A stretch of DNA of 44,130 nt from a virus, in the IMG/VR virus record IMGVR_UViG_3300006854_000032, positions 1-44,130 of that record, one strand, 5' to 3'. The notes beneath the pieces were generated by a model. The model worked only from the letters and a program-made list of their open reading frames with translations. It searched no databases and was not told the DNA's origin. The position numbers and the translations under genes were made by a program. Positions within the stretch are counted from its first letter, which is position 1. Each line of letters opens with the position of its first letter. This document shows, in pieces, positions 5,344 through 25,100 of this stretch.

Positions 5344-5352
5344 GTGACCTGC

Positions 5353-6063
5353 ATGGCTAAACCAATTCTAAGAATGTCTGTTGTCGGACACCAGTACGGT
5401 CGATGGACGGTGCTCGACGATGCGCCCGATCGCGTGCGAGGCGACGGTGGGCGTGTCCGATATGTCCTGTGCCGTTGCTACTGCGGCATCATCCGTGAAG
5501 TGCAACTCGGGCTCATGCGCTCGGGCTACTCGCTGTCGTGTGGCTGTGCGACCCGACAAGCGGTGTCGCGGCGTCAGCGCACCCATGGACAGAAAGGCAC
5601 GCCGGAATACCGGGCCTGGATCAATATGAATTACCGTTGCCACAGTGTGCCGCCCGGTGGAACGGGCTTCGATGACTACCGGGGACGCGGCATTTCAGTC
5701 TGTGAGCGCTGGCGGCATTCCTTTGAACACTTCCTTGCCGACATGGGCAAACGGCCGTCGCCCCAACACTCGCTCGATCGCATCGACGTGAACGGCCACT
5801 ATGAGCCGGCCAATTGTCGATGGGCCACGGTCGCGGAACAGAATCGCAACACGCGAGCCAATTGGAAGATCACCTATAACGGTGAAACGCGCTGTGTCTC
5901 GGAGTGGGCCGCGTTGTTCGGTCTCAACTTCTTCACGCTCGTGAAGCGACTTCAGAACGATTGGGACTTTGAGCGGGCCATCACCACGCCACCGCGAGCG
6001 ACGTGGAACATCGAGGCGCGAAAAGCAAATAGCGCCGGTCTTTCCGCCGGCCTGCTCTACTAG
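5353..6063 (+). CDS. Free-standing HNH homing-type endonuclease
   Basis: This 236-aa protein starts at ATG 5353, with AGGAG 11 nt upstream; the GTG at 5344 is too close to that site. The N-terminal 60 residues carry a GRWTVLDDAP motif and a CxC-C-C cluster (CRCYCG, SCGC), a likely zinc fold. The middle reads GTPEYRAWINMNYRC, GRGISVCERW and SLDRIDVNGHYEPANCRWAT, the HNH-like block common in phage homing endonucleases. The C-terminus (TYNGETRCVSEWAALFGL) resembles a DNA-binding NUMOD/HTH module. It lies opposite the late genes, between scaffold and the intron-bearing capsid gene, and its stop overlaps the scaffold stop. This is typical of an invading homing gene. Confidence 0.8.
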   Translation: MAKPILRMSVVGHQYGRWTVLDDAPDRVRGDGGRVRYVLCRCYCGIIREVQLGLMRSGYSLSCGCATRQAVSRRQRTHGQKGTPEYRAWINMNYRCHSVPPGGTGFDDYRGRGISVCERWRHSFEHFLADMGKRPSPQHSLDRIDVNGHYEPANCRWATVAEQNRNTRANWKITYNGETRCVSEWAALFGLNFFTLVKRLQNDWDFERAITTPPRATWNIEARKANSAGLSAGLLY

Positions 6064-13776: not shown

Positions 13777-14436
13777 TCAGTTAGCGGGCGCCTGGAGAGG
13801 GGGTTTTTGGGACACCCAATTCACCGAATTGACGATCGCGGCGACCTTGTTTTTGCCCACGCCGGCGAGCTCGGAGACTTTCCGCAGAGAGCGATGCTCT
13901 CCGTATAACTGCAAAACGCGTTCTCGATCGACAATGCGCTTCGGCCGGCCCAATGTTTTGCCCTGCCGCTTTGCGCGATCCACACCCGCTTGCACGCGCT
14001 CGCGAATGAGGGAGCGCTCGAGTTCCGCAACAGCCCCCAGGATCGTAAAGACCATCTTTCCCATTGGCGTCGACGTATCAATGGATTCATTCAAGGAAAT
14101 GAAATCCACGCCCAGGGCGTGAAATTCCTCCAGGGCCGTGACCAGGTGCTTCACCGATCGCGCGAACCGATCGAATCGTGCCACGAGCACCGCATCGAAG
14201 CGCCGTTTCTTTGCGTCGTTCATCAGCCGATCGAGTTGTGGCCTCGAGGCTTTCGAGCCCGAGATCCCGACGTCGACGTACTCATCTATAAGGATGAAAC
14301 CTCGAGCCTGGGCAAAGTCTCTCAGCGGGAGCAGCTGCGTCTCCGGGTTCTGCCCGTGCTGTTTGGTGGACACGCGCGCATAGAGCGCCGCTCGCTTGAG
14401 CGTGGGGGAAGTCACGGATAAACTATCGTCAGCCAT
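13777..14436 (-). CDS. Small serine recombinase (resolvase/invertase family)
   Basis: This 219-aa protein has the catalytic Ser in ALYARVSTKQ (about residues 17-26). DVGISGSKASRPQLDRLM, VARFDRFARS and STPMGKMVFTILGAVAELER follow (the conserved resolvase core), then the RERVQAGVDRAKRQGK hinge. The C-terminal HTH is LRKVSELAGVGKNKVAAIVN. Such enzymes resolve multimers, invert segments or move small elements. No invertible repeat pair is evident around the fibre genes. It is flanked by a terminator and a tandem repeat, suggesting a moron-like insertion. The phage also has a separate tyrosine integrase. Confidence 0.88.
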   Translation of the reverse strand: MADDSLSVTSPTLKRAALYARVSTKQHGQNPETQLLPLRDFAQARGFILIDEYVDVGISGSKASRPQLDRLMNDAKKRRFDAVLVARFDRFARSVKHLVTALEEFHALGVDFISLNESIDTSTPMGKMVFTILGAVAELERSLIRERVQAGVDRAKRQGKTLGRPKRIVDRERVLQLYGEHRSLRKVSELAGVGKNKVAAIVNSVNWVSQKPPLQAPAN

Positions 14437-21073: not shown

Positions 21074-21330
21074 AATCTGTGCAAGATCTGGACAAGTTTT
21101 GCAGAAATGAGACGATTGACGGCGACCTCTATGGTTTCCGTGTCTGCTACAACAACGAGTTACCAACCAGATCGCAAAATGAGTTTTTACTTCACACGCA
21201 GGAGGTCATCGGTTCGAGACCGGTCGGTCCCACTCCCCTTAACCCCTTGTCATATAAAGCGTTCATCTATACCTCAGTTCACCCAAGGCATCGCCAATTG
21301 CAGGTCATCTGTGCAAAATCTGGACAAGTT
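21074..21330. other. attP region: tRNA-Val-like core with flanking arm repeats
   Basis: At 21191-21232 (plus strand) lies the 3' half of a tRNA: an anticodon loop TTCACAC and the GCAGG stem strand. The T arm is ATCGG-TTCGAGA-CCGGT, and the acceptor strand is CGGTCCC plus A. The 5' half is absent. The loop fits tRNA-Val(CAC). Two direct copies of ATCTGTGCAA(G/A)ATCTGGACAAGTT lie at 21075-21098 and 21307-21330, one on each side, like integrase arm sites. The integrase gene ends at 21274, inside this region. Confidence 0.8.
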
Positions 21331-22437
21331 GTCCCCGAGCCGCGCCGCCGCCACCCGTTTCATCCCATCCGATGGTGCCTGGATGTAGATGAGCTGGGTG
21401 TCCACGTTCGCGTGGCCCATGATCGCGGCGATCGTCTTTGGAGGGATCCCTTTCTCATGAGCCATGGTTGAAAACGTTCGCCGGAGGGTCAGAAAGTTCA
21501 CCCGCGGCAACCCCAGCCGATCGCACGCCGGATACACGACGCGATGGAGGATGTTGGACGGGTTGTCGATCTTCCCCTTCCGGGTTCCAAATACAAAATC
21601 GTCGGCGCCGGTGCGCTTCGCCTGCCGGCGCCAGTCCTGTAAAAAACCGAGGGTCCAGCGATCGAGTTCGTTCACGCGCTTACCCGCTTCCGTTTTCGGC
21701 GGGCCCAGCCGTCCGTGATAGCTCGCTTCCCGAACTTCGATCGTCGCTTGAGCCTCATCGATCCGCCCCCACCGCAGCGCGAGCAATTCTCCCCTCCGTA
21801 AGGAGGTGACGATGGCGAGCACGATCATCGTTTTGACTTTGAGATTACGGATCGCTTTGATGAGCCGGCCGGCCTCTTCCGGAGAAAGCGCGAAGGTCTT
21901 CCGCTTCACTTCCAGTTTCGGCAGCCGCACCCCCAGGGCAGGATTTTTCTCGAGGCCGTACCAGGTCACCGCTTCGTTCATCACCACACGCAAGACTTCC
22001 TGGTAATGGTGGATCGAATGCGGTGCATAGTCTTTGTCGCGCAGCGCGGTGATCCAGGCCTGGACGTCTTTCGGTCCGACGAGTGAAACCAGCCACGTCC
22101 CGAATTGCGGAACGAGGTGGGTTTTCAAAATGCTCGCGTAGCTGATGCGGACCGAATACCGGTACATCGGCAGAATGTCGGTCTCCCAACGTTGGGCATG
22201 TTCTTTGAAGGTCGGCGGTTCCCCGTAATCGATCGCGGCATTCATTTTCTTTTTCGCATCGATCTTCGCGGCCAACGCTTCGCGGGCCTTGCGCCGGGAG
22301 ACGTCTCCTAAAAATTCGTACTTCATTTGGCGCCGACGCCGGCCGTCTTTCAGTAACACTGTCTCGGACCACCGGATCGCCAGTCCCCGTTTTTCGTTCA
22401 CGATGGAGCCGGAGCCCCAGTCGCGTTTTCGAGCCAT
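21274..22437 (-). CDS. int: Tyrosine integrase
   Basis: This 387-aa protein is read from ATG 22437 (MARKRDWGSGSI), preceded by GGAGGAAAGGA. An ATG at 22548 overlapping the upstream stop would add 37 residues. The N-terminal arm-binding domain is followed by a SAM-like core-binding domain (EHAQRWETDILPMYRYSVR). The catalytic domain has the first Arg in TSLRRGELLALRW, the second in LTLRRTFST, GH in IMGHANVDTQ and the nucleophile Tyr in LIYIQ. The His of the usual HxLRR box is replaced (NFLTLRR). It acts on the adjacent tRNA-type attP. Confidence 0.9.
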   Translation of the reverse strand: MARKRDWGSGSIVNEKRGLAIRWSETVLLKDGRRRRQMKYEFLGDVSRRKAREALAAKIDAKKKMNAAIDYGEPPTFKEHAQRWETDILPMYRYSVRISYASILKTHLVPQFGTWLVSLVGPKDVQAWITALRDKDYAPHSIHHYQEVLRVVMNEAVTWYGLEKNPALGVRLPKLEVKRKTFALSPEEAGRLIKAIRNLKVKTMIVLAIVTSLRRGELLALRWGRIDEAQATIEVREASYHGRLGPPKTEAGKRVNELDRWTLGFLQDWRRQAKRTGADDFVFGTRKGKIDNPSNILHRVVYPACDRLGLPRVNFLTLRRTFSTMAHEKGIPPKTIAAIMGHANVDTQLIYIQAPSDGMKRVAAARLGDNLSRFCTDDLQLAMPWVN

Positions 22438-22544
22438 AGAGGTCAGATCCTTTCCTCCGATTGGCCCTCGTTGTTGTAGCGGGGACAGTCTAATCGATTC
22501 CTTCAGGACGAATGGTTTCGCGCGAGGCTGGACGATTGTCTTGA

Positions 22545-23033
22545 TCATGCTTCACCTGCTGTGAAGCGATACCGTTCGATGGCCTCACGGATCTGATCGC
22601 GAGATATTTCGAAGATTTCGTACCGTATGCGAGAGGCGGTGAACAGGCGATGAAACCATGCTTCGACGCGTGCGGGTTTCGCGGCCGGCTGAACGGCAAC
22701 GAGTTGGAGGTCCTCCACATGGACGGCTTGAAGTGCGGCGATGCGCCGATGGATGTGCTGTGACGATCCAATCTTGATAAAGCCGTTCGGCAGCTGCAGG
22801 AAGTAAACTCCCGCAATTTTCTCTTGGGGGTGTCGCTGGCGCATTGGCGCCGGCTTTCCTGCTTCTTGGAATTGCCGCAAGTCTGAGGGTTGAATGCGGA
22901 TTCTGGACCCCAGCCGCAACGCCGCAAGCCTGCCGCTCTTGATCTGCCGTTTCACCCAGGGCAACGGTTTGCCGAGCAGGTCAGCGACGTCTTCTCGAGT
23001 GAGCAACCGTTCGAGTGGGGGCGCGTTTGTCAT
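22545..23033 (-). CDS. Excisionase-like HTH fused to a GIY-YIG/MUG113-type domain
   Basis: This 162-aa protein has two parts. Residues 9-58 read LLTREDVADLLGKPLPWVKR and RLGSRIRIQPSDLRQF, a MerR/excisionase-type winged helix. Residues 73-150 read AGVYFLQLPNGFIKIGSSQH, then IHRRIAALQAVHVEDLQLVA and VEAWFHRLF, matching the GIY-YIG-related T5orf172/MUG113 pattern, with catalytic-type Arg and Glu. It lies directly before integrase, with a 4-bp overlap to the alternative int start, as an excisionase would. Whether the nuclease-like half is active is unknown. Confidence 0.7.
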   Translation of the reverse strand: MTNAPPLERLLTREDVADLLGKPLPWVKRQIKSGRLAALRLGSRIRIQPSDLRQFQEAGKPAPMRQRHPQEKIAGVYFLQLPNGFIKIGSSQHIHRRIAALQAVHVEDLQLVAVQPAAKPARVEAWFHRLFTASRIRYEIFEISRDQIREAIERYRFTAGEA

Positions 23034-23400: not shown

Positions 23401-23666
23401 ACCCCCAACCTTTCCAGCTTCGCCGATTGTGAAGTCTCCACAGCCCGCTCGCTCGGCCCCAGACACATCTCCCCGTTCCGATCGAAGACCACATCCAGCA
23501 GATCCTGCCGAACGGATTCCAAGAGGGCCGTGTAGTACTCGATTTGATACTCGACGTCTTCAAAGAAGGCCATCGCTTCCCGTAACTGTTCCGGGGTGAC
23601 TTTGCCCCGACGTCCCCGATGGACCGCTCTGAAGACGGCATTGCAGTCGTCTTTGGAGAGGCTCAT
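23397..23666 (-). CDS. Hypothetical protein, leftward early operon
   Basis: This 89-aa, mostly helical acidic protein contains TPEQLREAMAFFEDVEYQIE and a C-terminal ERAVETSQSAKLERLGV. Start and stop overlap both neighbours by ATGA, so it is translationally coupled. No family is recognised. Confidence 0.6.
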   Translation of the reverse strand: MSLSKDDCNAVFRAVHRGRRGKVTPEQLREAMAFFEDVEYQIEYYTALLESVRQDLLDVVFDRNGEMCLGPSERAVETSQSAKLERLGV

Positions 23667-23971
23667 TGCGTACGCCTCGCGCGGGCCTGCGCTTCCACCT
23701 GCTGCTGATCGCGCCGCAGGTATTCGATCATCTCGGCATCCATGACGCCCTTCGCCAGGGCCGCCTGCTCAATGCGCAGACAGACTTCTTCGACGAAACG
23801 CCGCGTGGACCCCGTCGTTTGGGGATGCCGGAGGGCGAGCTGCAGATAACCGTGCAGCGTGATCCAGTCCACCATGCGCGCGTGAAGAATGACGTCTTCT
23901 TGAAGCTCCCTCTCGTGCGTTTTAAACAGGTGCAGCATTTTCTGCTGCATCGCTTCGGGATGATCCTTCAT
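23663..23971 (-). CDS. Helical hypothetical protein, leftward early operon
   Basis: This 102-aa protein is almost all helix and rich in His, Glu and Gln (EAMQQKMLHLFKTHERELQE, then RFVEEVCLRIEQAALAKG and a Gln/Arg C-terminus). ATGA overlaps both neighbours. It may be a small regulator or an anti-host protein, but this is only from position. Confidence 0.6.
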   Translation of the reverse strand: MKDHPEAMQQKMLHLFKTHERELQEDVILHARMVDWITLHGYLQLALRHPQTTGSTRRFVEEVCLRIEQAALAKGVMDAEMIEYLRRDQQQVEAQARARRTQ

Positions 23972-24288
23972 TTCTGGTGCGTCCCTTCGACCTGTCGCGC
24001 TTCCCGATCGCGCGTGCGTTTATCGAGCCACATCAAGGCTTCTTCGATTTTGGTAATAGCGATCGCATTCTCACGGCATTTGAATTTCCCGTCCTGATAG
24101 GACTGGATGCGCTGCAAGGCCGCCGCGAGCACGGTTTCCACAAACGCCCCGTTGGGTTCTTTCCGATCCGCGCCACGACCGAGCGGTCCGTTTTGCCAGG
24201 TGATTGAAAGACCAACTCCGGAAACGGAACCCCCGGCGGGATTGCCGTCCGCGTCCAAATGGTTCACGGCGGTGAAGTCTTGCTTCAT
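23968..24288 (-). CDS. Probable Acb2/Tad1-hairpin protein (cyclic-nucleotide sponge)
   Basis: This 106-aa protein reads SITWQNGPLGRGADRKEPNG, AFVETVLAAALQRIQSYQ, then KFKCRENAIAITKIEEAL, MWLDKRTRDREARQVEGTH. The last part, a RENAxAITKxEEAxMWLDKRT helix, is the pattern of the Acb2/Tad1 hairpin family. Known members sequester CBASS or Thoeris cyclic nucleotide signals. The WQNGPLGRG-EPNGAF N-terminal block is common in phage homologues. It is the first gene after the XRE regulator, so it would be made early. The assignment rests on remembered motifs; binding activity is not shown. Confidence 0.65.
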   Translation of the reverse strand: MKQDFTAVNHLDADGNPAGGSVSGVGLSITWQNGPLGRGADRKEPNGAFVETVLAAALQRIQSYQDGKFKCRENAIAITKIEEALMWLDKRTRDREARQVEGTHQK

Positions 24289-24545
24289 CGTTTCTTCCCT
24301 CCCACCAGTTCCCGTTTGTCGCCTTTACGCCCATTGCCCTCGTGCAACAAATCCGGAACACTGACACCGAGCACGGAGGCGACGGCGTCCAATCGATCCA
24401 GCGGAAGATTGCCTCCGCCGTTCTCCATGAGATACCAATACTGTCGGCCCACGCCGAGCCGCTCGGCCGCCTGAACGACGGAAAGACGTTTCTCCTCTCG
24501 AAATTTTTTAATGTTGGCGGCGACGATCCTTCGCGTTCGAGTCAT
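24285..24545 (-). CDS. XRE-type regulator, leftward (Cro/CI-like)
   Basis: This 86-aa protein is read from ATG 24545. The HTH reads KKFREEKRLSVVQAAERLGV, then GRQYWYLMENGGGNLPLDRL. A short basic tail follows. A sigma70-type promoter places the start about 4 nt before the ATG, so the message is practically leaderless. Its recognition helix (LGVGRQYWYL) almost matches that of the divergent regulator (VGVGRQYIYL), so the two probably bind the same operators. It heads the leftward operon leading to integrase. Confidence 0.75.
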   Translation of the reverse strand: MTRTRRIVAANIKKFREEKRLSVVQAAERLGVGRQYWYLMENGGGNLPLDRLDAVASVLGVSVPDLLHEGNGRKGDKRELVGGKKR

Positions 24546-24632: not shown

Positions 24633-25100
24633 GTGCCAGTAGACAGCGACGTCCAGGCGGCTCTGCAATCGCTCGGCCCGCAATTAAAACGATATCGGGA
24701 GGGGGCGCAGTTGACGGTCGCGGCGGTCGCCAAAGCCGTGGGCGTCGGCCGACAGTACATCTATCTCGTCGAGGCGGGCACCGCCAATTTCACCATCGAA
24801 ACGCTGGTTAAATATCTTCGCGCCTGCGGCGTCCCGTTTGAGGAATTTCTACGGGGCATGCGGGCGGGCGACATTTCGCCGGCCGAACAACGGCACCGTC
24901 AAATGCTCAACATCATCCATAAATCCGACATCGCCGACCTGGTCAAAGGGATCGAGGTCAACCTCGAAGCCATTTCCGAAAAAGCGCTGCGACTCGTTAA
25001 AGCCAGGGCCTCTCCACGCCCGGAGTCCGGGGTGGGCGCAGGAAGCACGGAGGGGCCGACACGGGAAGGACACCACCGAAAAAAGCGACGCGCCGGCTAA
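24633..25100 (+). CDS. XRE-type repressor, rightward (CI-like)
   Basis: This 155-aa protein starts at a GTG (24633). It has an N-terminal HTH (KRYREGAQLTVAAVAKAVGV, then GRQYIYLVEAGTANFTIETL) and a helical middle (KSDIADLVKGIEVNLEAISE) that may dimerise. A basic Gly/Arg/Lys tail ends it. There is no LexA/CI-type peptidase domain, so induction would not be by RecA self-cleavage. A TTGAGC-16-TAGAGT pair just upstream would give a nearly leaderless message. It is divergent from the shorter XRE gene, forming the lysis-lysogeny switch. Confidence 0.75.
   Translation: MPVDSDVQAALQSLGPQLKRYREGAQLTVAAVAKAVGVGRQYIYLVEAGTANFTIETLVKYLRACGVPFEEFLRGMRAGDISPAEQRHRQMLNIIHKSDIADLVKGIEVNLEAISEKALRLVKARASPRPESGVGAGSTEGPTREGHHRKKRRAG

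Follow-up and report, generated by a model that had tools for sequence, protein, structure and literature searches.

A Tad1-family homologue encoded beside the regulator and integrase genes of a temperate phage

Tad1-family proteins soak up the chemical alarm signals used by bacteria to trigger anti-phage defence. Does a 106-aa ORF in a 44,130-base IMG/VR virus record (IMGVR_UViG_3300006854_000032; positions 1 to 44,130, hereafter the window) encode such a protein, and does it belong with Tad1 or with Acb2? The ORF is present on the minus strand, starts with ATG and carries both motifs named in the original prediction, RENAIAITKxEEALMWLDKRT and WQNGPLGRG-EPNGAF. Relatives are encoded at 67 distinct loci on viral contigs and at 7 on genome contigs, with identity of up to 79%, and six positions (Q32, G34, G47, R60, R91 and R95) were invariant in an alignment of 63 sequences; the ORF is thus far beyond what chance would produce.

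We compared the protein with known families. On its own, it scored 28.7 bits against the Pfam model PF24729 (Acb2_Tad1_hairpin), narrowly above the cut-off of 27, and 40 of the 63 relatives matched this model at an E value of 0.01 or lower. PF24729 covers the helical hairpin common to Acb2 and Tad1, and this match would also suit a sponge of the Acb2 type that takes up only the cyclic nucleotides of CBASS. However, no Acb2 chain was among the PDB sequence, profile or fold matches listed. The best PDB sequence matches were solved Tad1 chains (8kbb, E 1.6e-16; 7uav, E 2.4e-12), and a profile built from the 63 relatives retrieved Tad1 8kbb with an E value of 3.5e-27, in an alignment that is loose over about the first 20 positions. 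Since this profile match spans positions 6 to 105 of 106, the N-terminal half is Tad1-related as well. Among isolate phages, 44 records matched the protein, including a gene named Tad1 in SBSphiJ7; other Tad1 homologues in isolate phages are named "ABC transporter ATPase", "putative structural protein" or "HNH endonuclease". The Tad1 profile also matched gp184 (PDB 8y6v chain I; E 3.3e-13), a phage protein of 230 aa that is part of a solved structure. The best PHROG was phrog_2428 (E 1.5e-25), yet this group is listed as of unknown function, and the protein had no match in PADLOC or NCBIfam.

The predicted fold was then used to tell the two families apart. The AlphaFold monomer model (mean pLDDT 94.7, pTM 0.82) contains three strands (residues 5 to 11, 17 to 24 and 27 to 31) followed by two long helices (50 to 65 and 72 to 97). 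Tad1 consists of an N-terminal antiparallel sheet, described with four strands, and two long helices, whereas Acb2 has a short N-terminal helix without a beta sheet in front of its two long helices (PMC12043709). The model shows the Tad1 arrangement, with three strands versus the four described, and these strands stand where Acb2 has its short helix, which is absent. The N-terminal strands thus fit Tad1 and not Acb2, and Acb2 membership was rejected on the fold; we regard it as very improbable. In the PDB fold search, all 20 chains with an E value below 1e-3 were Tad1 (TM-score by query length, 0.56 to 0.70), the best being 8kbb (E 8.8e-7), and the first match beyond these 20 had an E value of 0.38. 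The structural match that the original prediction had asked for was found with Tad1, and the proposed hairpin family was borne out by Pfam, PDB and fold; the Acb2 half of the proposed name did not survive. The same prediction took the WQNGPLGRG-EPNGAF block for a phage extension, but this block is the conserved beta-sheet/loop core of Tad1. Judged from sequence and from the predicted model, the gene (referred to here as tad1) encodes a homologue of Tad1 (Thoeris anti-defence 1) rather than of Acb2, and it extends an already known family instead of revealing a new kind of system.

Among the characterized relatives, the founding anti-Thoeris protein is SBSphiJ7 Tad1 (PMC12043709). This protein has 142 aa versus 106 in the window and is 51% identical to it over window residues 28 to 106, the last 79. 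SBSphiJ7 Tad1, CmTad1 (8kbb) and the window protein all have an FQxGP...NG core, a helical hairpin and a RENAxAITK...KRT...RE...EGT tail; the window protein differs from the other two in a shorter N-terminal sheet, an RKEP insertion and a W for F in the core. The Tad1 of a Clostridium botulinum prophage, cbTad1 (7uav, 7uaw, 8smd and 8kbe to 8kbh), was also recovered by fold (7uaw, E 1.9e-6), has a longer N-terminal part and is 26 to 34% identical in structural alignments. The aligned arginines and asparagine are conserved; R91, R95, N74 and Y64 of the window protein align with cbTad1 R109, R113, N92 and F82, which we take to be ligand contacts in the Tad1 structure. This correspondence, read from the alignment, is a lead to a putative binding site. 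Among viral models, Vibrio phage VP-1 supplied the closest (TM 0.92, rmsd 1.3), a hypothetical protein labelled "Acb2/Tad1 hairpin", which has a similar GGS...GxG-like N-terminal part. It is 44% identical to the window protein, lacks the RKEP insertion and carries F in the motif where the window protein has W.

When aligned with isolate-phage Tad1 proteins, the window protein falls into a large, mostly metagenomic group of short proteins. This subclade is marked by a GGS/GxG N-terminal part, by an FQxGP motif in which W replaces F, and by a shorter N-terminal sheet. Moreover, its members carry an insertion of four residues, typically RKEP, in the segment that leads from the FQxGP motif to NG. 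None of the other isolate-phage proteins examined, SBSphiJ7 and CmTad1 among them, has the insertion; at this point, cbTad1 is longer by a single residue, and VP-1 and Vibrio phage 1.244.A combine a subclade-like N-terminal part with the absence of the insertion. VP-1 sits inside the large clade of the window protein in a quick FastTree reconstruction (84 columns, midpoint rooting), whose branching order carries little weight. In one relative from an Amesbacteria bin (L070, 3112-3480), the GGAVHGVGLEIKWQEGP segment is repeated internally. The Omnitrophota Bin_62 contains two contigs whose phage regions resemble each other; both encode a Tad1 relative, and in each relative the C-terminal tail is longer.

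The pocket of Tad1 is ringed by four conserved loops (PMC12043709), and the RKEP insertion and the shortened sheet may lie near it. Because of these two changes, the subclade may not capture the same range of ligands as the Tad1 proteins that have been tested. A sponge derived from Tad1 could hence have come to capture other signals, or fewer of them, as the W for F replacement and the ring of loops around the pocket would also allow; the core motif and the arginines are nevertheless kept, and we consider such a change possible but unlikely. Slightly more doubtful still is the idea that the subclade forms a separate functional branch of Tad1, in which the altered loop would shift the captured signals, possibly to one so far not known as a Tad1 ligand. 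The reading that we prefer is a sponge with the established Tad1 function.

We next considered the position of tad1 in the window (Table 1). It had been predicted to be the first leftward gene but is in fact the second, since the 85-aa HTH gene lies ahead of it and shares 4 bases with its start. At its other end, tad1 overlaps the 102-aa ORF, again by 4 bases. The leftward run continues from there through an 89-aa ORF, a 96-aa ORF weakly matching zinc ribbons and the excisionase-like/T5orf172 gene to the tyrosine integrase, its ORFs being tightly packed or overlapping. Given this integrase, the uncultured phage is temperate. The 102-aa ORF had no family match above the cut-offs of Pfam, PHROG, PADLOC or NCBIfam. 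In the gene immediately upstream of the integrase, an HTH_17 excisionase-like domain is fused to T5orf172/MUG113. As to the early expression presumed in the original prediction, the one sigma-70-like match upstream of tad1 (24584-24556, minus strand), near the divergent HTH genes, was at chance level only. The repeats found there were either short with two copies per family or imperfect pairs lying far apart. No tRNA genes were found in the window. Two further ORFs were classified by eye: one at 13777-14436 (minus strand) resembles a serine resolvase/invertase, alongside the tyrosine integrase in the same phage, and one at 5344-6063 (plus strand) resembles an HNH/AP2-type homing endonuclease, with the structural genes on the other strand.

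Table 1. Features of the window around tad1
Feature	Position	Strand	Basis
tad1 (Tad1-family signal sponge by homology/fold), 106 aa	23968..24288	-	ORF, ATG start; PF24729, PDB, AlphaFold
85-aa HTH (Cro/CI-type) regulator	24285..24542	-	HTH_31/HTH_3 above cut-off; phrog_8 transcriptional regulator
155-aa HTH regulator, divergent to the 85-aa HTH gene	24633..25100	+	HTH_31/HTH_3 above cut-off
102-aa ORF, no assigned function	23663..23971	-	ORF only
HTH_17 (excisionase-like) + T5orf172/MUG113 protein	22545..23033	-	Pfam; NCBIfam excisionase domain
Tyrosine integrase	21274..22548	-	PF00589, E 1.2e-15; phrog_1 integrase, 7.5e-61

This location also bears on whether the protein might have another role in the phage, structural or otherwise, and simply borrow the hairpin fold, as the annotation of some homologues as structural and the presence of gp184 in a solved structure could suggest. 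We find this highly improbable: tad1 adjoins the regulator/integrase region, away from the structural genes, and phiKZ Tad1, for its part, is described as a counter-defence protein that the phage injects (PMC13282480).

The flanks of the relatives' loci (5 to 8 kb, and thus local context only) were compared with the window. A single relative, 75% identical in Tad1, matched the divergent HTH pair of the window, with tad1 in the same place. The remaining loci matched the 17 tested window genes only in tad1, apart from a weak terminase match in two of them, and no neighbour gene was common to most loci. The recurrence of tad1 in many phages with non-matching neighbours fits an accessory counter-defence gene that is passed between phages. 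As DNA, the 21.2-25.3 kb region had no match in isolate phages, and the terminase of the window reached at most a 49% match there. Relatives in metagenome bins came from Amesbacteria, Phycisphaerales, Actinomycetes, Omnitrophota and Alphaproteobacteria. A ThsB_TIR match was present in one of the six genome bins with relatives and a SMODS match in none of the six, counts that are uninformative.

Tad1 binds gcADPR, CDNs and CTNs (reviewed in PMC12043709). The best explanation for the window protein, to which we assign a probability of roughly 85%, is a Tad1-family sponge, most likely a hexamer built of three dimers, as is known for Tad1. By analogy, this hexamer would bind but not degrade the cyclic ADP-ribose isomers that TIR proteins make (gcADPR) and, probably, also cyclic di- and trinucleotides. 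Such sequestration would keep the effectors of Thoeris, and possibly of CBASS, inactive; we infer that this protection would act during infection or induction.

With the window protein, a known counter-defence family gains a large subclade drawn mostly from metagenomes, and phrog_2428 gains a functional lead. The occurrence of relatives across varied bin lineages suggests that counter-measures against signal-based anti-phage defence exist in many uncultured groups. Should the changed loop indeed shift the choice of ligand, the subclade would offer a natural set on which to study sponge specificity.
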